36,696 bases of DNA from Clostridia bacterium (lineage in GTDB: Bacteria > Bacillota > Clostridia > Oscillospirales > Acutalibacteraceae): the NCBI GenBank assembly GCA_017631955.1, contig JAGBSJ010000032.1:1-36696 (forward strand), read 5' to 3'. The stretch's first letter is position 1, and every line of letters begins with the position of its first letter. The position numbers and the translations under genes are program-made. Below the pieces are notes generated by a model, which did not search any database, was not told the DNA's origin, and saw only the letters and a list, made by a program, of their open reading frames with translations. Positions 2 to 18,478 of this stretch are shown in pieces.

Positions 2-223
2 CTTAAATCTAGAATTGTTATTGCTCATATAAGTAATAGAAATCCAAATGTGTATTATGAGTTAGGTATTGCTCATGCCTTGGGAAAACCAACAATATTA
101 CTATGTCGTAACGGAAATCAAGTTCCGTTTGATTTGAAACAAAAGTATATTATCTTTTATTCAAATGAAGAGGAATTGTCAAAAAAATTGCAAATAGCAA
201 TATTGAAGATTCTTACAAATTAA
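2..223 (+). CDS. NDT/TIR-like nucleotide-processing protein, C-terminal end only
   Basis: This is the last 73 codons of a gene that enters from the left edge; its start is outside the window. The visible part carries the motif NPNVYYELGIAHALGKP (about residues 14-30 of the fragment), followed by a beta-strand-like TILLC and a short acidic and helical tail. That motif is the signature of the nucleoside 2-deoxyribosyltransferase-like/TIR-like fold, in which the Glu of YYELG matches the catalytic Glu that attacks the N-glycosidic bond. Such domains occur both in nucleoside salvage and, often, as NAD- or nucleotide-cleaving effectors in phage defence. Only 61 bases with no terminator separate it from the next gene, so co-transcription is likely. 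A defence role is inferred from context, and the N-terminal domain is unknown. Confidence 0.65.
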   Translation, partial: LKSRIVIAHISNRNPNVYYELGIAHALGKPTILLCRNGNQVPFDLKQKYIIFYSNEEELSKKLQIAILKILTN

Positions 224-284
224 AATTTATATTGTAACATTTGTATTTTAGATATATCTGATTGTTAAAAATGGAGGAAGAAAA

Positions 285-980
285 ATGTCGATTTATAATC
301 ATAAGAAAAATAAGATAGGTTTTTTTACAGAGTTATACTTGAGTTATCGTGGTAAAAAAGATGCAAGAACAAAATCGGTTAGAACAGGGAAAGATGGTTC
401 CTTAGAATCCCCTTTTATAAGAAAAGAAATAAGTCTTTGTTCAGCGGCGATTGAAGAACAAAAAATTGCATTGATAGAAAGATTATTGGAAGAACATATC
501 AAAAATGAAGCTTTTAAAGCATCGGTTAATAAACATTATGTTGCTTTGAGGATGATTAGAGAAAATGGATTGGATTTTGAATACGATATATCTGCACAAC
601 AGACAAATAATTCAAATGATACTGTGGACAAATTGTTGAAACATCACGAAATGATGTCAAACAAATTTGCACAAAATATACGTACTCATCTTATTGAAAT
701 AGAGGGATGTAATGTCGAAAGTGATATTGCAAAAAATGATTTAAATATAAACAAAGAATATGAAACGACTTATGTAAAATGTTTAAAATATGTTGATATA
801 TTATTTGCAAGATTATCTGCATATTGGAGTGGTGTTTTAAAATGTGATTATGATGGAGCAAAATTTCCAACATATTTTGCTTATGAAGAAATTAAAAGTG
901 AATTAATTGCAAAATTAAACGAGGTTAAAAACATTAAATTAAATGATATTAAAAGTGTTTCTCTTAACAATGAAATGTAG
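285..980 (+). CDS. Unrecognised 231-residue cytoplasmic protein, cassette gene A
   Basis: I do not recognise this protein. The start is supported by GGAGGAAG at 273-279 just upstream of the ATG. There is no signal peptide or membrane segment. The N-terminus is strongly basic (KKNK, RGKKDARTK). The middle, about residues 45-100, is predicted to be helical and Glu/Lys-rich, followed by an Asn/Ser/Thr linker near 105 and another helical region to the end. It sits between the NDT/TIR-like gene (61 bases upstream) and a small coiled-coil gene (11 bases downstream), so it belongs to the same leftmost transcription unit. The basic start could bind nucleic acid, but no motif shows this. Codon use is very A+T rich, like its neighbours in the island. 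Confidence 0.7.
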   Translation: MSIYNHKKNKIGFFTELYLSYRGKKDARTKSVRTGKDGSLESPFIRKEISLCSAAIEEQKIALIERLLEEHIKNEAFKASVNKHYVALRMIRENGLDFEYDISAQQTNNSNDTVDKLLKHHEMMSNKFAQNIRTHLIEIEGCNVESDIAKNDLNINKEYETTYVKCLKYVDILFARLSAYWSGVLKCDYDGAKFPTYFAYEEIKSELIAKLNEVKNIKLNDIKSVSLNNEM

Positions 981-991
981 GAGTGGATATT

Positions 992-1300
992 ATGAAAAAT
1001 AAGTTTTGGGTTAACAATGAAAAGGAAAAGGGTCCTTTAAAAAAATATGGTTATAAGGATTTAATACCAGTAGAGATAAATCTTAATATAAAAAAAGAAA
1101 TTGATGATTATAATCAAAATACAAGAGCAGTGGGTAAAGGTACATATTTTAATTTGTTTTATTTCAATGCCTTAATAGAAGAAAAATTTTCAAAAATTAT
1201 AAGCCGAATAGAAACTCAATATAAAGCAAATTTACAATCAATAGAGATGTATTTTACTAAAAGACAGGTTGTAAAAAAAGAGTATGAAGAAATGATTTAA
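992..1300 (+). CDS. Small Lys/Glu-rich helical protein, cut by an in-frame TAA (cassette gene B)
   Basis: The ATG at 992 is chosen over the in-frame GTG at 983 because AGGAG (978-982) lies at normal distance before it. The product is 102 residues: a charged, basic N-terminus (KNKFWVNNEKEKG), a short aromatic stretch near residues 48-56 (YFNLFYFN), then a helix rich in Lys, Glu and Gln. The frame stops at TAA 1298-1300, but the same frame stays open for another 36 codons to a TGA at 1409-1411. That extension is again charged and heptad-like and ends right at the start of the next gene. The unbroken protein would be about 139 residues. The stop may be a true end, a recent nonsense mutation, a sequencing error or a recoded codon. 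I recognise no family. Confidence 0.55.
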   Translation: MKNKFWVNNEKEKGPLKKYGYKDLIPVEINLNIKKEIDDYNQNTRAVGKGTYFNLFYFNALIEEKFSKIISRIETQYKANLQSIEMYFTKRQVVKKEYEEMI

Positions 1301-1411
1301 AATTTAGATAAGCAAATACAAGTTGTTGAAAAAGATTTTGAGTATGTGAAAGAATTGTACAATAGTTTTAACACTGTTAGTTTTGAGGAGAATAAAGAGG
1401 GAGTAGAATGA
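1301..1411 (+). pseudogene. In-frame continuation of gene B after the TAA stop
   Basis: Thirty-six sense codons follow directly, in frame, after the TAA at 1298-1300 and end with TGA at 1409-1411, one base before the next gene's ATG at 1413. The translation (NLDKQIQVVEKDFEYVKELYN, then an acidic end ENKEGVE) continues the amphipathic Lys/Glu helix of gene B. No ribosome binding site or start codon suggests separate translation. It is best read as the severed C-terminus of gene B, or as a readthrough extension if the stop is suppressed. Confidence 0.5.
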
Positions 1412-1412
1412 A

Positions 1413-2141
1413 ATGAAAAAACTTTGGAAAGTAGATGTTAATGGTTCAGTTAGCTTTTCAGTGGACAATAAACTTTTTGAATCTGTAAGAAAAATTAATA
1501 ATTGGTATACAAATAGTCGATTCACTACTCCAGTTTTGGTAATAGCTGCAACAATAGATTTGGCAGGATTTTATCAGGTTGCACAAGCAACACTTATGGA
1601 AAGTGCTATTAATAGAACAATTATAGTTGCTGCTTTTGTAATTGCTTTTGAGTTAGCTCCATTGTATGTTGGATATGCAATTTGCTTGAAGGCATATAAT
1701 TTAGGTGAAAGAATTAGGAAATATGTTTTTTGGTTTTCTTTGACTTCATTTATATTAGGTGTAGTAGGTAATGCATATTATAGATTTTCAACAATGAACT
1801 TTATAGATATTGGTAATGAGAAGGTTCAATTGCCTTTTACTGTGCTGATGGTTATTTTGCCGTTAAGTACTAGTTTTATGAACTTTGCAATTGGTTGTTT
1901 ATCCTTTGACCCATTATCAGCTGATTTAAAAAGATTGTCAAAAAAACTATATGTTTTGAGAACTAATAGACGCAATTTAGAAGGACAGTTAGAAACCTTC
2001 AAAGATGACATTAATATGAAAACTGAGATGATAGCAGCAGAAGAGTCTATGTTTGAATGTGCCAAAATTGAAGTGTTAGCATCAAAAATAAAGTATAAAG
2101 ACTATGTCAATAATAACACAACAGAAATTGATATAAAATAA
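1413..2141 (+). CDS. Four-helix membrane protein with cytoplasmic coiled-coil tail, cassette gene C
   Basis: A 242-residue integral membrane protein; GAGGGAG at 1398-1404 supports the ATG. Four hydrophobic segments are visible at about residues 38-58, 69-92, 102-122 and 141-164. After these comes a charged, Leu-spaced stretch at about 170-215 (LKRLSKKLYVLRTNRRNLE and on) that should form a coiled coil, and a polar C-terminus. It is followed after 9 bases by an OmpA-domain lipoprotein. A membrane protein with a coiled-coil tail paired with an OmpA-domain partner recalls stator-like pairs such as MotAB or ZorAB. However, I see no MotA/ExbB motif, and the partner here is a lipoprotein rather than a one-helix MotB-type protein. 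Function unknown; a membrane anchor or channel for the cassette is my inference. Confidence 0.7.
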   Translation: MKKLWKVDVNGSVSFSVDNKLFESVRKINNWYTNSRFTTPVLVIAATIDLAGFYQVAQATLMESAINRTIIVAAFVIAFELAPLYVGYAICLKAYNLGERIRKYVFWFSLTSFILGVVGNAYYRFSTMNFIDIGNEKVQLPFTVLMVILPLSTSFMNFAIGCLSFDPLSADLKRLSKKLYVLRTNRRNLEGQLETFKDDINMKTEMIAAEESMFECAKIEVLASKIKYKDYVNNNTTEIDIK

Positions 2142-2150
2142 GGAGTTAGT

Positions 2151-3380
2151 ATGAAAAAAAATATATTTTATTTTTGTTGTATTTTGGTATTTTTTAGTGT
2201 GCTATTATCAGGGTGCGAGAAAACGGAAGTTACTGAGTCTGAATCAGTTGTTGTGCTTATTGGAAACCATGCCAATGCTAAAATGGTGGATGAAAAAAAA
2301 TTTTTAGAAGAAGTTAAAGATGTTTACATGAATTTGGGGACAATATCATTTATTGTTGTTGATGGAGAACCTGAGATAATATATAAAGACGATGAAATAT
2401 TGGGTTATGTTGGCCAAGAGGAAATGGAAAAACGTGCGAAAGAAAAGGCTCTCAATGAGGATTTGTGGAGACAAGAGTTGAATCCTATTATCGAGAGAAT
2501 TGGTAAAGATGCGTATAATACACCTGCAAATAATAATGAAGTTGATATAATAAAAGCATTAAATGAAACTTCAAGTGCTTTGAATTATTCAATGATAGAG
2601 AATGTGGAGTATGATAAAAGAATTGTTATTTATGATTCAGGATTATCAACAACAGGCGTTGTAAATTTTTGCGAACATAATATTTTGCAAATGAGTGAGG
2701 CAGAAATAAATGCTTTTGTTGATGAACTTTATTATAATAAAGAAATTCCAAATTTGAGTGAAGTTGAAGTTGAATGGTACGGTATTGGTAAGGTTGCCGA
2801 ACCACAACAGGCTATTAGTAATAAATATTGCGAAAAAATCAAATATTTATGGAACCGTATAATAGAAAAGGCTGGGGGAACAATAAAATTTATCGATTAT
2901 ATTTTTAATATCACGGTAAAGGCTGATTGCGAGGTTTCCAAAGTAATAATTCCAAGTGTTTCAAGAGAAAAGTTTGTAGTTTATTTTCTTGGTGATAGTA
3001 TTGCCTATAATAACAATGAAATTATTGCTAAAAATGTGTTGGTACAGGCGGCTAATGAAATAATGTCGTTTGAGGGCGTTTGGTATATAATAGGTTGTGA
3101 GGCTACTAGAACAGAAGATGGTGTAGAAGATTTAAAAAATCACTATTCTGCATTGAGAGCAGATAAAGTGGCAAAAGAATTGAGAAAGCTTGGCGTGTCA
3201 GATAGTAAAATTATTGTCAGTGCGTTAGGCCCGTATGATCCGTGGAATATAAATGAATATGTGGATGGCTCCTGGAGGGAAGAATTAGCTCAAAAGAATC
3301 GAAAGGTTGTTATAATACATACAGAAAACCCTGAAATTGTAGATGATATAGAGTTTATAGAAGAGGGTAGAATTGGATGA
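2151..3380 (+). CDS. OmpA-domain surface lipoprotein, cassette gene D
   Basis: A 409-residue secreted lipoprotein. The N-terminus has a basic start, a hydrophobic core and the lipobox LLSGC with Cys22, so it should be lipid-anchored on the outer face of the membrane. Residues about 32-215 form an alpha/beta region (VVVLIGNHANAKM, IVIYDSGLSTTG) that resembles the N-terminal part of clostridial OmpA-family lipoproteins as I remember them. Residues about 275-390 form an OmpA C-terminal-like fold: NHYSALRADKV at 330-340 fits the N..LS..RA..V signature, and QKNRKVVI at 381-388 fits the terminal NRRV motif. The usual GHTD is replaced by GCEA (315-318), so the peptidoglycan-binding Asp is missing while the Arg of LRA is kept. 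AAGGAG precedes the start. It is the last gene of the cassette, with a terminator about 85 bases on. Confidence 0.8.
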   Translation: MKKNIFYFCCILVFFSVLLSGCEKTEVTESESVVVLIGNHANAKMVDEKKFLEEVKDVYMNLGTISFIVVDGEPEIIYKDDEILGYVGQEEMEKRAKEKALNEDLWRQELNPIIERIGKDAYNTPANNNEVDIIKALNETSSALNYSMIENVEYDKRIVIYDSGLSTTGVVNFCEHNILQMSEAEINAFVDELYYNKEIPNLSEVEVEWYGIGKVAEPQQAISNKYCEKIKYLWNRIIEKAGGTIKFIDYIFNITVKADCEVSKVIIPSVSREKFVVYFLGDSIAYNNNEIIAKNVLVQAANEIMSFEGVWYIIGCEATRTEDGVEDLKNHYSALRADKVAKELRKLGVSDSKIIVSALGPYDPWNINEYVDGSWREELAQKNRKVVIIHTENPEIVDDIEFIEEGRIG

Positions 3381-3463
3381 TAAAAGAATGTAGGACAAAT
3401 AAGATAAAGAATGTTTTCTTTTGTGTCCAATGAATCCAAAACTAAAACTTAATAATTCAAGAA

Positions 3464-3498
3464 ACAGGACGAGGTTTTCACACCCCGTCCTGTCTTTT
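3464..3498 (+). terminator. Terminator after the OmpA-lipoprotein cassette
   Basis: ACAGGACGAGGT pairs with ACCCCGTCCTGT across a six-base loop, a 12-bp stem with one mismatch, followed by TCTTTTC. It ends the leftmost cassette. Confidence 0.8.
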
Positions 3499-3750: not shown

Positions 3751-4746
3751 ATGGACTCTGCAAAGATAAATGAACAATTAATACATACAGATGAATTGAA
3801 AAATGTGTTAGATAAAATATGTCAACATGAACAATTGTATTCAATAGCATTATTTGATGTGTTAGGTTTTTCAAAGTTGGTAAGCTCACAAGGTAATCAG
3901 GTAGTTTTAGACCTATACAATAAATTGTTAGATATATTAGATAAGCAGAAAACTCACAATGATGGTGCAACCGGATTTGCTGCTAGTGTTGTTCCTGTGC
4001 CTGTAACAAAAGATTGGAAACAAAGCATAATGATGGCAGAAGCAAACGGATTTATAAATGCTTGCCATTTTAGTGACACTTTTTTAATTTATGTAAATTA
4101 CGAACTTTGTCATGATGGGTTCTATTTGTCAACACCTTTTAACGAACCATACCCGTTATTATTGGGTGAAGTTGGTACAGAATGTTTTCCTATGTTGTAT
4201 CAAAAACACAATATATATTTATCTTTTTTGCAAACTTGTATGGAGTTCTTTTGCCAAGCAATTATTTCCGGCATACCACTTCGCGGATGCATATCCACAG
4301 GTTTAGCGATTATGGACCACACGAAGTCTATTTATATAGGAGAGCCTATAGTTGAGGCTGCTCGTGGTGAGCCTGCACAAAACTCTTTAGGGATTGCTTT
4401 TGGCAAGAGTTTTAATAATTCACATCCAGTATATAATAAATACTTCATACCGTACTTAAATCATTTAAAACAAAATGATGAAAGAACTAAGTTTTTAAGT
4501 CCTATGATGTTGGATTGGGCAAGATACTGGCGAGAATCTTCCGATTTTAAAGATTACGATTTCTTTGAATGTATAAATAAAATGAACACAGATGAAAAAT
4601 GCAGTTCGTATTATGAAAATGCAATCAAGTTCTTTGAATATTCAAAGGCGCATAAAAATTGGGCTTCTAAATTAAACAGAGAAGGTATTAATGATATAAC
4701 TGACTATTATAAACGAGCAACAGAGTGGTTGGAGTCAGTGAAATAA
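3751..4746 (+). CDS. Class III nucleotide cyclase-like protein, Pycsar PycC-like
   Basis: A 331-residue protein with the hallmarks of the divergent class III nucleotide cyclases that include the Pycsar pyrimidine cyclases (PycC). ALFDVLGFSKLV (33-44) puts the first metal-binding Asp at 36. HFSDTFLIYV (106-115) gives the second at Asp109. IPLRGCISTG (175-184) then IYIGEPIVEA (194-203) match the conserved LRGxIS.G and G.A...A elements. In Pycsar these enzymes make cCMP or cUMP on phage infection to activate a TIR or membrane effector. No such effector follows: a weak terminator and 333 bases separate it from an OLD nuclease. GGAG precedes the start. Substrate cannot be read from sequence, and a role in cyclic-nucleotide defence signalling is inferred from family and island context. 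Confidence 0.65.
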   Translation: MDSAKINEQLIHTDELKNVLDKICQHEQLYSIALFDVLGFSKLVSSQGNQVVLDLYNKLLDILDKQKTHNDGATGFAASVVPVPVTKDWKQSIMMAEANGFINACHFSDTFLIYVNYELCHDGFYLSTPFNEPYPLLLGEVGTECFPMLYQKHNIYLSFLQTCMEFFCQAIISGIPLRGCISTGLAIMDHTKSIYIGEPIVEAARGEPAQNSLGIAFGKSFNNSHPVYNKYFIPYLNHLKQNDERTKFLSPMMLDWARYWRESSDFKDYDFFECINKMNTDEKCSSYYENAIKFFEYSKAHKNWASKLNREGINDITDYYKRATEWLESVK

Positions 4747-5079: not shown

Positions 5080-6903
5080 ATGAAGTTAAGAAAGGTTGCA
5101 ATCAAAAATTTTAGAGCATATTTAGAGCGAGTTGAATTTTCAGTTAATGAAATTACAGCACTTATAGGCAAAAACGACATAGGTAAATCAACAATATTAG
5201 ATGCACTTGATATTTTCTTTAATAGCAATAAACTTGATGCGATTGAACGCAATATACATTGTGGAGTTGAACCCGTTGAAATAACTTGTGTGTTTAGCGA
5301 CTTTTCATCTGAAATTATACTTGATGAAACTGTTGCTACATCTCTTTCAAATGAATATCTGCTAAATGAAGATGGAATGCTTGAAATACGAAAGATTTAT
5401 TCTGTTGTGGGAAAAGAAACAGTATATATTGTTGCATTACACCCTACAAACGAACCTTATAATAATCTTCTTTTAAAAAAGAATTCTGAATTAAAGAGTC
5501 TAATTCGCAGTGAAGGGTTAGAAGAAAACGTTAATCTAACAATAAACTCTGAAATGCGACATGCTTTATGGAATTCCCTTGGTGATAATTTGACTTTATC
5601 CACACAAGCATTGTGTGTAGATAAGGAAGACGCAAAAAATATTTGGCAAAAAATAGTGCCTGAACTGCCTAAATATCATGTTTTTAGATCTGATCGCCCA
5701 AGCACAGATGAAGATGTGGTTGCACAAGATCCTATGCAAATTGCAATGAAGGCTGCTATTCAAGAAAAACAGGAGGAGTTATCTCGTATCGCAGATGAAA
5801 TAAAAGAAAAAGTTTCTCTAGTAGCGGACAAAACAATAGATAAACTTAAGGATTTTGATGAAACTTTAGCTTCTACTCTAAAACCACAATTTAAAAAGGA
5901 TCCTTCATGGGAAAAGGCATTTACATTTTCTTTGTTTGGTGATGAAAATATCCCTATAAATAAACGTGGAAGTGGCGTTAGACGACTTATACTTTTTAGT
6001 TTTTTTAGAGCAAAATGTGAAGAAAACATTGGTGAACAAACCGATGTTATATACGCAGTGGAGGAACCTGAAACATCTCAACATCCAGATTTCCAACAGA
6101 CGATTATTAATACTTTTATTCAAATGGTTAATAATCCACATTGCCAGATTATTTTTACTACTCATGTTCCAGGATTAGCTAAATTGGTTCCAGTTTCATC
6201 ACTGAGATATATAACAAACAATAATGGCTATCCTGTAATTGAAGAAAGTTCAGAAGACATTATTCAAACGATAGCTGATTCATTAGGCGTTTTACCAGAT
6301 TTGACTCCGCCATTAGCAGAATATAGAAATATCAGATTAATTGTATGTGTGGAAGGCATAAATGATATCAGTTTTCTTGATAATATTAGTTTGGCTTTAC
6401 ACAACGAAATTCCAGAGATAGAAAAGTTATCTACAATTCCAGATATTGTAATGATTCCTTTAGGTGGCAGTTCTTTGCAGGAATGGGTGAATCGAAATTA
6501 TTTACAAAAACTCAATATACCAGAATATCATATCTATGATAGTGATTGTACCAATGCTCATCAAACAGATTGCGATGGAGTAAATGGTAGGGGAAATGGG
6601 TCTAGCGCACGTATGACTTCAAAACGTGAGATGGAAAATTATCTCCACACAGAGGCTATTCGTCAAGTATATGAATGGTTTGACTCTCCAGTTACAGATG
6701 AACTTGATGTTCCCAAAACTATATCAGATTATTTAAAGGCAAATAATATTCCGGGTTCGAAAGAGAAAAATGTAAAAACGAAGTTGAACAACGAAGCTGT
6801 TAAATATATGTCTTTAGAATTGTTAAAGCAACAAGATGTAGAAAATGAAGTACTATCTTGGATTTGTGATATTTTAGGTTTAGATATACACAGATATTTG
6901 TAA
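5080..6903 (+). CDS. OLD-family ATP-dependent endonuclease (ABC ATPase plus TOPRIM)
   Basis: A 607-residue overcoming-lysogenization-defect (OLD) family protein. The ABC/SMC-like ATPase half has a Walker A GKNDIGKST (30-38), the signature region RGSGVRRLIL (296-305), Walker B AVEEPE (326-331) and the H-loop TTHVPGL (360-366). The TOPRIM half has VEGINDI (424-430), DSD (487-489) and KREMENYL (515-522), which supply the acidic metal ligands for DNA cleavage. OLD proteins cut or nick DNA and protect against phages; Gabija GajA is a class 2 relative. No UvrD-like helicase (GajB) follows, so this reads as a stand-alone class 1 OLD. The start is supported by GAGGTG. All catalytic motifs look intact. 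It is the last gene before the island boundary. Confidence 0.9.
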   Translation: MKLRKVAIKNFRAYLERVEFSVNEITALIGKNDIGKSTILDALDIFFNSNKLDAIERNIHCGVEPVEITCVFSDFSSEIILDETVATSLSNEYLLNEDGMLEIRKIYSVVGKETVYIVALHPTNEPYNNLLLKKNSELKSLIRSEGLEENVNLTINSEMRHALWNSLGDNLTLSTQALCVDKEDAKNIWQKIVPELPKYHVFRSDRPSTDEDVVAQDPMQIAMKAAIQEKQEELSRIADEIKEKVSLVADKTIDKLKDFDETLASTLKPQFKKDPSWEKAFTFSLFGDENIPINKRGSGVRRLILFSFFRAKCEENIGEQTDVIYAVEEPETSQHPDFQQTIINTFIQMVNNPHCQIIFTTHVPGLAKLVPVSSLRYITNNNGYPVIEESSEDIIQTIADSLGVLPDLTPPLAEYRNIRLIVCVEGINDISFLDNISLALHNEIPEIEKLSTIPDIVMIPLGGSSLQEWVNRNYLQKLNIPEYHIYDSDCTNAHQTDCDGVNGRGNGSSARMTSKREMENYLHTEAIRQVYEWFDSPVTDELDVPKTISDYLKANNIPGSKEKNVKTKLNNEAVKYMSLELLKQQDVENEVLSWICDILGLDIHRYL

Positions 6904-16447: not shown

Positions 16448-17743
16448 ATGTTATCTGTATGGAATGCAAATTCGAGTTTTCAAAGTTTTCCGCAACTGAA
16501 TGACGATATTAAAACACAAGTTGCCATTGTTGGTGGCGGAATAACAGGTGTGTTGTGTGGCTATATGTTAAAACAAAAAGGTGTAGATTGCGTAATTCTT
16601 GAAGCGGACAGAATCTGTAAAGGTGTTACACAAAATACCACCGCGAAAATAACATCTCAACACGGACTGGTTTACGATAAACTCATTAATGGTTTTGGTA
16701 TTGAAAAAGCACAAATGTACCTTGAGTCCAATGAAAATGCGGTAAAAACTTATCGCAAAATGTGTGAAAGCATTGATTGTGATTTTGAAAATAAACCTAA
16801 TTTCGTGTATTCTACAAACAATTTAAGAAAAATTGAAAAAGAACTGCACGCTTTAGTCCGCCTTGGCTTTAACCCGGATTTCACAGGCGAAATTCCTGTG
16901 CCTATTGATATTGAAGGTGCGGTTAAATTCGAAAATCAAGCACAATTTAATCCTTTGAAATTTCTTTCTCACATTTCAAAAAACCTACAGATTTATGAGC
17001 ATACAAAAGTCATTGAAATTCGCGGAAAACACGCTTTTACAAATCACGGCAAAATAACTGCAGAGTATTTTATTGTAGCAACACATTTTCCGTTTATGAA
17101 TAAATTCGGCGGCTATTTTGTGAAAATGTATCAGGAGCGTTCTTACGTAATCGCCCTTGAAAGTGGTCCGCAAATTGACGGAATGTATGTTGACGAAGCG
17201 AAAAAAGGAATGTCATTCCGCAATTATAAAAACTATCTTTTTGTAGGCGGTGGAGACCACAGAACTGGTAAAGATGGTGGTAATTATCGTGAACTTCGCA
17301 CCTTTGCAAAAATCCAATACCCCGAAAATCACGAAAAATACCATTGGGCAACTCAGGACTGTATGTCCTTAGATAACGTGCCATATATCGGCAGGTATTC
17401 TACGAAAATCCCTAATGTATTAGTTGCTACTGGTTTTAATAAATGGGGTATGACATCCGCTATGGTGTCGGCAGAAATCCTTTCAGATATGGTAATAAAC
17501 AAAAAGAATGAATACGAAGAACTTTACACACCGTCAAGAAGTGTAATAACATCTCAACTTGCAGTAAATCTTTTTGAGTCAGCAGTAGGACTTTTAACAC
17601 CATCAACAAAAAGATGCCCACATTTAGGATGCGCATTAAAATGGAATTCTGCCGAGCACACATGGGATTGCCCTTGCCACGGCTCACGTTTCACAAAAGA
17701 TGGAGAGGTTATCGAAAATCCAGCAACAGCAGATTTGAAATAG
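16448..17743 (+). CDS. FAD-dependent oxidoreductase with C-terminal Rieske domain
   Basis: A 431-residue two-domain flavoprotein. The N-terminal DAO-type domain has the FAD-binding VAIVGGGITGVLCGYML and ILEADRICKGVTQNTTAKIT, and LFVGGGDHRTG in the middle. The last 50 residues form a Rieske [2Fe-2S] domain with CPHLGC and CPCHGSRF giving the two Cys-His pairs. Relatives (YhfW-like) transfer electrons between an amine or sugar substrate and the cluster; the substrate is not known. I start at ATG 16448, using GGGTGA as ribosome site; the ATG at 16436 has none. The protein ends soon after the Rieske motif at NPATADLK, slightly shorter than most relatives, but no motif is missing. Confidence 0.92.
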   Translation: MLSVWNANSSFQSFPQLNDDIKTQVAIVGGGITGVLCGYMLKQKGVDCVILEADRICKGVTQNTTAKITSQHGLVYDKLINGFGIEKAQMYLESNENAVKTYRKMCESIDCDFENKPNFVYSTNNLRKIEKELHALVRLGFNPDFTGEIPVPIDIEGAVKFENQAQFNPLKFLSHISKNLQIYEHTKVIEIRGKHAFTNHGKITAEYFIVATHFPFMNKFGGYFVKMYQERSYVIALESGPQIDGMYVDEAKKGMSFRNYKNYLFVGGGDHRTGKDGGNYRELRTFAKIQYPENHEKYHWATQDCMSLDNVPYIGRYSTKIPNVLVATGFNKWGMTSAMVSAEILSDMVINKKNEYEELYTPSRSVITSQLAVNLFESAVGLLTPSTKRCPHLGCALKWNSAEHTWDCPCHGSRFTKDGEVIENPATADLK

Positions 17744-17787
17744 TTTATTTTTGGTTACATTCTCACAATACAGAGTGGCTTGTAAAA

Positions 17788-17822
17788 AGAGCGTAAAGAT
17801 TTAACTTTACGCTCTGCTTTTT
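17788..17822. terminator. Bidirectional terminator
   Basis: AGAGCGTAAAG (17788-17798) pairs perfectly with CTTTACGCTCT (17805-17815), with a run of A before and T after. It separates the converging Rieske and GDSL genes. Confidence 0.92.
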
Positions 17823-18478
17823 TACTTCAACAACGGTATTACATTTTCTGCAATAACTTTATATGCACTAACATTCAAATGAAGTCCGTCAAAGGTGTAT
17901 TCTTTTTTCAGGTTACCTGTTTTATCTTTTAATTTGTCAGTAACATCAAGCCATACACAACCGTATTTTTCACTTAACTTAATAAACTCTTTGTTCATAA
18001 GTTCGATTTTATCATTACTACGCTTTTCAAACTTATCTCGCATACCGCGATTAATAGGGTAAACCGCTTGTAAAATAAAATTCACATCAGGGCATTTTTC
18101 TTTCGCCATTTCAATGATTTTACTTACATTTTCAACGGTGATTGAAAGGGGAAGCCCACGGCTTATATCGTTAGTGCCAATAAGCAATACAATATTTTTT
18201 GGATTTATGCTTAATACATTATCATTAAGTCGTTCCAAAAGTCGGTCAGTAGTGTCGCCACTAATACCTCTGTTATAAACCGCCTGACCTGAAGATTTAC
18301 TGAAATCATAAAACAATTCATACCAGTTAAAAAAATCAGTAATTGAATCGCCTAACAAAACAGTTTGATTATGCAAAGCATATTCTTCATTAAGAATTCT
18401 GTAATTCTCACGCTTTGTTCGTTGTTCACGATTATATTCAGTATTTTTTGAGTAATTGACATTTTTTCTGAAAATCAT
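17822..18478 (-). CDS. SGNH/GDSL-family hydrolase
   Basis: A 218-residue esterase/lipase of the SGNH fold. Block I LLGDSITD gives nucleophile Ser45; the oxyanion Gly lies in NRGISGDTT (69-77); block III IGTNDI gives Asn103; block V DGLHLN gives Asp197 and His200. All four catalytic blocks are intact. There is no signal peptide; the first 40 residues are charged and helical. It begins three bases after the stop of the alpha/beta hydrolase gene, with AAGGTGAA in that gene's last codons as ribosome site, so the two are translated from one message. The substrate, likely an acetylated or acylated carbohydrate, is inferred from the fold. Confidence 0.92.
   Translation of the reverse strand: MIFRKNVNYSKNTEYNREQRTKRENYRILNEEYALHNQTVLLGDSITDFFNWYELFYDFSKSSGQAVYNRGISGDTTDRLLERLNDNVLSINPKNIVLLIGTNDISRGLPLSITVENVSKIIEMAKEKCPDVNFILQAVYPINRGMRDKFEKRSNDKIELMNKEFIKLSEKYGCVWLDVTDKLKDKTGNLKKEYTFDGLHLNVSAYKVIAENVIPLLK

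Follow-up and report, generated by a model that had tools for sequence, protein, structure and literature searches.

The window analysed here, a stretch of 36,696 nucleotides from a Clostridia bacterium, is the complete contig C35 (G000:C35, 1-36696) of a 1.40 Mb draft genome that is 78% complete. It carries a four-gene cassette, genes A, B, C and D, which recurs with the same genes in the same order in other genomes, so that the arrangement exceeds chance. The initial annotation of the window had described a five-gene unit of co-directional frames, and this layout was confirmed: five frames run on the + strand from the first bases of the window (2-223, 285-980, 983-1300, 1413-2141 and 2151-3380). 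The last four are genes A to D. The gaps are 61 bases between gene 1 and A, 2 bases between A and B with the GTG start at 983 (11 with the ATG at 992), 112 bases between B and C counted from the TAA at 1298-1300 (1 base if the third frame runs on to the stop at 1409-1411), and 9 bases between C and D. A hairpin lies 3' of gene D on the same strand (3464-3493, -17.6 kcal/mol, z -4.48) and is followed by TCTTTTC. The hairpin with its T-rich tail fits a terminator, as annotated, despite a consensus terminator scan that found none against 0.9 expected.

A search with C of 147 related genomes found relatives in four besides the window's own, and all four had the same neighbours. Profile searches then covered five overlapping draws, namely the class (391 genomes), the family (300), the phylum (398), the family of G257 (200) and the order of G123 (245), and one collection scan with D added L039 (mapped to G1510). 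Weak C or D matches at loci without the partner genes were dropped as not being true relatives. In total 20 genomes, the window's included, hold true relatives, and 19 of them belong to the window's class. D comes after C in 18 of the 19 testable genomes (G1240 was left out of this count, as a contig end cuts its locus), and the usual order is A-B-C-D. The initial annotation had proposed to test whether this order recurs elsewhere, and counted homologues that never co-occur as a refutation; for genes 2-5 they do co-occur, in the same order. BLASTP linked C across 19 genomes and D across 18. Over the 15 loci tabulated, the spacing of adjacent cassette genes runs from -110 to 71 bases, the one exception being the 112 bases past the broken B of the window.

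The four proteins also diverged together. Distances correlate for all six protein pairs over the 15 complete loci (Mantel r 0.56-0.72, P = 2e-4, the lowest value that 5000 permutations allow), and with three close relatives removed the correlations remained (r 0.51-0.69, all P≤0.001). True members are sparse, being present in 6 of the 391 class genomes and 7 of the 300 family genomes, own genome included, which fits an accessory module. Literature searches found no description of the A-D cassette and no published relative.

Gene 1 (2-223, +) is not a fixed member of the cassette. Since the window is a whole contig, the contig end cuts this gene, and only its end remains, open at the 5' side: the C-terminal 73 residues of a protein resembling nucleoside deoxyribosyltransferase (NDT) and TIR domains. 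This remnant scored 20.2 bits against Pfam PF05014, under the cut-off of 28.8, and matched the PADLOC model PDLC00733 'Effector, TIR' (E = 3.7e-9). The cassette loci examined in 18 further genomes gave no homologue of gene 1 (lowest tblastn E = 0.83), and the five-gene unit thus became one of four. In G059, the closest relative, a different TIR gene, a relative of SpbK (PADLOC E = 1.1e-86), opens a run of seven co-directional genes that ends in D; a protein without a family and a ParA/MinD-like ATPase lie between it and the cassette.

Gene D (2151-3380, +) encodes a 409-residue lipoprotein with a vWA-fold domain at residues 28-254 and an OmpA/Pal domain at about 269-392. The C-terminal domain was found with the family profile (E = 4e-13), its best PDB profile match was YiaD, and the fold is also present in the structure model, which in addition shows the vWA fold of the N-terminal part. 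Read by eye, a lipobox-like motif is convincing in 16 of 18 D proteins. D is the sole PF00691 match in the window's own genome, as far as its 78% complete draft goes. From its fold and profile, the OmpA/Pal domain is predicted to bind peptidoglycan; Across 12 sequences Arg336, in an SxxRA stretch, reaches a conservation of at least 90%, and we take it to have a role in this binding. vWA domains can carry a metal site, MIDAS, with the motif DxSxS. At the corresponding place after the first strand, none of 12 D proteins shows this motif and most read G-N/K/G-H/T-x-N. D had no match in viral contigs. Its Pfam and NCBIfam matches, including IcmN/DotK (E = 0.0074), fall in the OmpA domain or the signal peptide, and the PADLOC ZorB3 model was touched by 3 of 12 D proteins (best E = 0.0032). 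In G698 a second, shorter gene for an OmpA-type lipoprotein-like protein follows D (L034:7554-8045, D profile E = 3.4e-22).

Gene C (1413-2141, +) encodes 242 residues. Its structure model (m1d65db470746, mean predicted local distance difference test score, pLDDT, 62) shows four helices in the membrane and a helical hairpin at the C-terminus, and hydropathy of 18 homologues also gave the membrane helices. D49, P83 and T153 are invariant in 13 sequences. None of 13 C proteins matched the ZorA models at E 0.1, and MotA, ExbB and ZorA were absent among the 21 PDB sequence matches of the C profile up to E 5. The loop between helices 2 and 3 is short in a model that is too weak to exclude a MotA/ExbB-type fold. 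C had no match in the plasmids or phages searched.

Genes A and B are less conserved across the loci than C and D. A (285-980, +; 231 residues, helical-looking by eye) had no match in Pfam, PADLOC or NCBIfam, and B had none in Pfam or PADLOC. Related genes occupy the place of A in other loci: an upstream frame was found there in all 12 testable loci of the first 13 (the profile includes these loci; G394 is cut). BLASTP gathered A of G000, G020, G059, G081, G123, G402, G580 and G698 with that of G1158 and G1265, and a second cluster joined G761 with G1197 and G1489. For G083, G257 and G339, A was assigned by place and alignment, and G1504 has a frame of the size of A in its place. The 5' part of B in the window (983-1300, +; 105 residues) ends at an in-frame TAA and matched B of G059 by BLASTP; frames of 116-162 residues stand in the same place elsewhere. 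The 36 codons past the TAA (1301-1411, +) remain in frame and align with the C-terminus of the intact G059 protein (score 69; best of 2000 shuffles 55), so B is broken in this genome, by nature or by assembly. In G1197 a single frame, cut by the contig end, holds both B and C. This natural fusion argues for contact between B and C.

The initial annotation had reported no named match for any of the five genes. This held for A, B and C in Pfam and PADLOC, and failed for the fifth gene, given its C-terminal OmpA/Pal domain. Apart from that domain, genes 2-5 match no catalogued family in Pfam or PADLOC, nor do A, C and D in NCBIfam. Transfer proteins gave no credible Pfam or NCBIfam match to A, C or D.

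TIR genes stand near a number of the copies. In 7 of the 20 genomes a TIR_2 gene that passes the cut-off was found no more than 20 kb from the cassette, against 0.44 expected under random placement (P about 2e-8, with TIR genes no more than 20 kb from each other merged). The seven (G059, G083, G123, G257, G339, G698 and G761) are all among the first 13 genomes. All TIR_2 matches of the genome are near the cassette in G059 (1), G257 (3), G339 (3) and G698 (3). For G123 the share is 4 of 5 and for G761 it is 7 of 14, while G083 has one such gene there. Other defence genes were found beside further copies. PDC-S46 stands directly after D in G020 (PADLOC E = 1e-230). Near the cassette are AbiEi/AbiEii in G402, together with a protein whose matches are REase-II-type and TIR-like, type III Cas10 with Cas5/Cas7 of type III-D in G1489, and an AriA/OLD/GajA-like neighbour in the window. 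The expectation of defence-type genes nearby was thus borne out for about half of the copies: adding these four to the seven TIR_2 genomes gives 11 of 20 with either a TIR_2 gene at up to 20 kb or a neighbour that clearly matches a PADLOC defence model, in a tally that had no control.

Other neighbours are of different kinds. Kinase, PP2C, FHA, leucine-rich repeat and Sel1 proteins adjoin the cassette in G083 and G1504. Large proteins with kinase-like and CARF-PDDEXK-like parts are encoded in G123 (E = 2e-17 and 8e-13) and G257 (E = 5e-5 and 1e-10); their Pfam Card1 matches are under the cut-off. In proteins of this plan with 1412 and 1507 residues (L010:14515-18753 and L031:6653-11176), the N-terminus is kinase-like and the CARF-PDDEXK/Card1-like nuclease region lies towards the C-terminal end. 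Coupling-protein-like ATPases of type IV secretion systems (T4SS-DNA_transf, TrwB) are present in the flanks of G339, G761 and G1265, with similar ones by tblastn in G020 and G123. From these surroundings we regard the cassette as an accessory module of plastic regions in which defence genes abound alongside genes of other kinds.

Several single genes in these regions were recorded. In the window, the gene at 3751-4746, between the cassette and the OLD-like gene, encodes 331 residues that weakly match NsnC in PADLOC (E = 1.7e-4). The latter (5080-6903) encodes a 607-residue AAA_15 ATPase (Pfam E = 2.6e-73) whose best PADLOC match is AriA, with further matches to Old and GajA. Its C-terminal part is Toprim-like by eye, so that it is probably a defence nuclease, either of the OLD family or of a fused PARIS-like type. 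In G761 a 243-residue frame downstream of D (L035:12780-13511), HNH/GH-E type nuclease-like by eye, stands beside the TrwB-like ATPase stretch. A ClpP-like protease adjoins a T4SS coupling-protein-like ATPase near the cassette in two genomes (L056:3474-4067 with 2191-3483; L035:16519-17097 with 17094-18371). Related proteins of 1060 and 1009 residues without a Pfam match lie beside the cassette in two genomes (L029:4661-7843 and L035:3854-6883). L034:75-2294 encodes a 739-residue tetratricopeptide repeat (TPR) protein with Pfam matches to TPR families and weakly to DUF2225; by eye we presume its N-terminus to resemble the DUF4062 TIR-like NADases.

What was observed is the A-D unit with its joint divergence, the domain make-up of D, the helices that place C in the membrane, the fused B-C frame and the neighbouring genes; that the proteins form a complex is inferred, as are its topology, its trigger, the direction of signalling, the link to effectors and any anti-phage outcome. 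Our tentative reading, to which we give somewhat less than even weight, is that A-D may be an envelope-spanning sensor, carried by mobile or defence-rich regions in bacteria of a single class, which signals to exchangeable cytosolic effectors. Lipoprotein D, seated at the membrane's outer face, would grip peptidoglycan with its OmpA/Pal domain and a protein partner with its vWA domain. C would span the membrane with its four helices and hold the helical hairpin in the cytoplasm, where B and A would dock on it and relay the state of the complex. Wall damage or displacement, by phage entry, lysis or attack of a competitor, would alter the grip of D, and the signal passing through C, B and A would set free or switch on an effector in the cytosol whose gene is close by, often one of TIR type and sometimes a protein kinase. 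A further-reaching version, which we consider doubtful, makes A-D a general-purpose alarm platform for wall breach, running from a peptidoglycan-held vWA lipoprotein through a four-helix adaptor and two small cytoplasmic proteins to the effector of the island. Such a platform would be an immune sensor separate from Zorya, without a motor and able to exchange its outputs, such as a TIR NADase, a kinase-nuclease fusion or a kinase/PP2C pair.

A number of observations weigh against the proposed sensor. The cassette is not always whole: G257 lacks D, D of G394 is shortened with its OmpA part gone, and G1510 has a regulator-like gene in the place of a recognisable A. Among the six later loci, the A profile found A in three (G1265, G1158 and G1197) and the B profile found B in three (G1510, G1265 and G1197); for the most part, B was called homologous from its position, its length and alignments. 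The interruption of B may leave the window's copy non-functional, and the structure model of C is weak. The correlated distances may come partly from shared species history and not only from inheritance of the operon as a unit. TIR_2 genes are near the cassette in none of the seven later genomes (0.06 expected; four lack any TIR_2 match), and among the first 13 none over the cut-off is nearby in G000, G020, G081, G394, G402 (one sub-threshold) and G580. TIR genes generally cluster with defence genes, so proximity is no proof of a functional link, and the 11 of 20 above rest on PADLOC runs with chosen neighbours. The neighbours are mixed, with kinases, PP2C proteins, T4SS coupling ATPases and core genes, and proximity to PP2C was not significant (2 of 13 against 0.46 expected, P = 0.07).

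In the accessible part of PMC11890865, peptidoglycan binding by ZorB is required for Zorya defence, and wall-based sensing of infection is shown for Zorya in proteobacterial-type systems. The annotated resemblance to ZorAB survives as a general plan: an outer OmpA-type peptidoglycan-binding domain, a membrane protein with a helical cytoplasmic extension, and cytoplasmic effectors. The components differ: C has no detectable ZorA or MotA sequence match, D is a lipobox vWA-OmpA lipoprotein where ZorB has an N-terminal membrane helix with a conserved Asp, and two small proteins, A and B, are usual members. ZorC, ZorD and ZorE were not among the PADLOC matches listed for the chosen subset of neighbours scanned. 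Membership of Zorya is thus not supported by these sequence comparisons. A divergent Zorya-like motor, with C as a MotA/ExbB-type ion-driven stator and D as its OmpA partner, could draw on the shared plan, on the ZorB3 matches and on the invariant Asp, Pro and Thr of C. With the failure of C to match ZorA, MotA or ExbB, the lipobox and vWA domain of D and the short loop in the weak model of C, we consider it highly improbable. The sensing suggested above borrows the logic proposed for Zorya and not its motor, because there is no sequence sign of ZorA or MotA and D is predicted to be lipid-anchored with a vWA domain. The nearest published theme is that of the vWA-based conflict systems, such as the iSTAND ternary system; the accessible part of PMC7159879 joins vWA with peptidoglycan-associating domains (OmpA, PASTA, Sel1) and describes kinase-PP2C-vWA neighbourhoods. 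The cassette differs in that no MoxR, STAND or GTPase component was seen in A-D and that vWA and OmpA stand in one lipoprotein. D resembles the Pal/YiaD-type OmpA lipoproteins and adds to their plan an N-terminal vWA domain and fixed partner genes. SpbK and the DUF4062/Swarozyc TIR-type NADases are TIR-fold effectors near some copies; they are neighbours and not homologues of A-D, and the accessible parts of PMC12847820 and PMC13174449 mention no membrane partner for them.

The absence of gene 1 from the other loci might suggest chance adjacency of unrelated genes, an idea with next to no weight and already refuted for A-D by the recurrent order, the small gaps, the correlated divergence and the B-C fusion. 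The cassette could instead be an accessory module of integrative or conjugative elements, serving surface or entry exclusion or anchoring a transfer channel rather than immunity. Its patchy distribution and the coupling-protein-like ATPases in 5 of the 19 genomes whose flanks were read point this way. We think this unlikely: a tblastn search that used two of these ATPases gave no match in the remaining 14 genomes, on flanks of unequal length, C was unmatched in plasmids and phages and D in viral contigs, and by eye some copies lie between core-type genes (ileS in G580; rpoC and addAB-like in G1158). Equally improbable in our estimate is a peptidoglycan-tethered scaffold that maintains the wall in growth, division or envelope stress and has no role in conflict. 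The OmpA/Pal domain of D is consistent with it, as are the proteins of kinase, PP2C or FHA type that adjoin certain copies (G083 and G1504; a kinase in G123 and G1197; PP2C in G257). Against it stand the rarity of true members, which are scattered over families, the excess of TIR neighbours, and SpbK, AbiE, PDC-S46 and Cas10 adjoining the cassette in four genomes.

The proposal of an envelope-sensing defence or competition system is therefore supported in part: the recurrent undescribed cassette and its defence neighbours speak for it, and the membership of gene 1 and a likeness to Zorya beyond the general plan were not supported. The A-D cassettes are envelope-linked accessory modules, probably related to conflict. 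If the envelope-spanning sensor is correct, it would carry wall-based sensing of infection beyond Zorya, to another group of bacteria and to a differently built system that seems to lack a motor, and it would offer a route to study how TIR-type effectors are coupled to events at the cell surface. Regardless of mechanism, the undescribed four-gene operon with its vWA-OmpA lipoprotein provides starting points for biochemistry.

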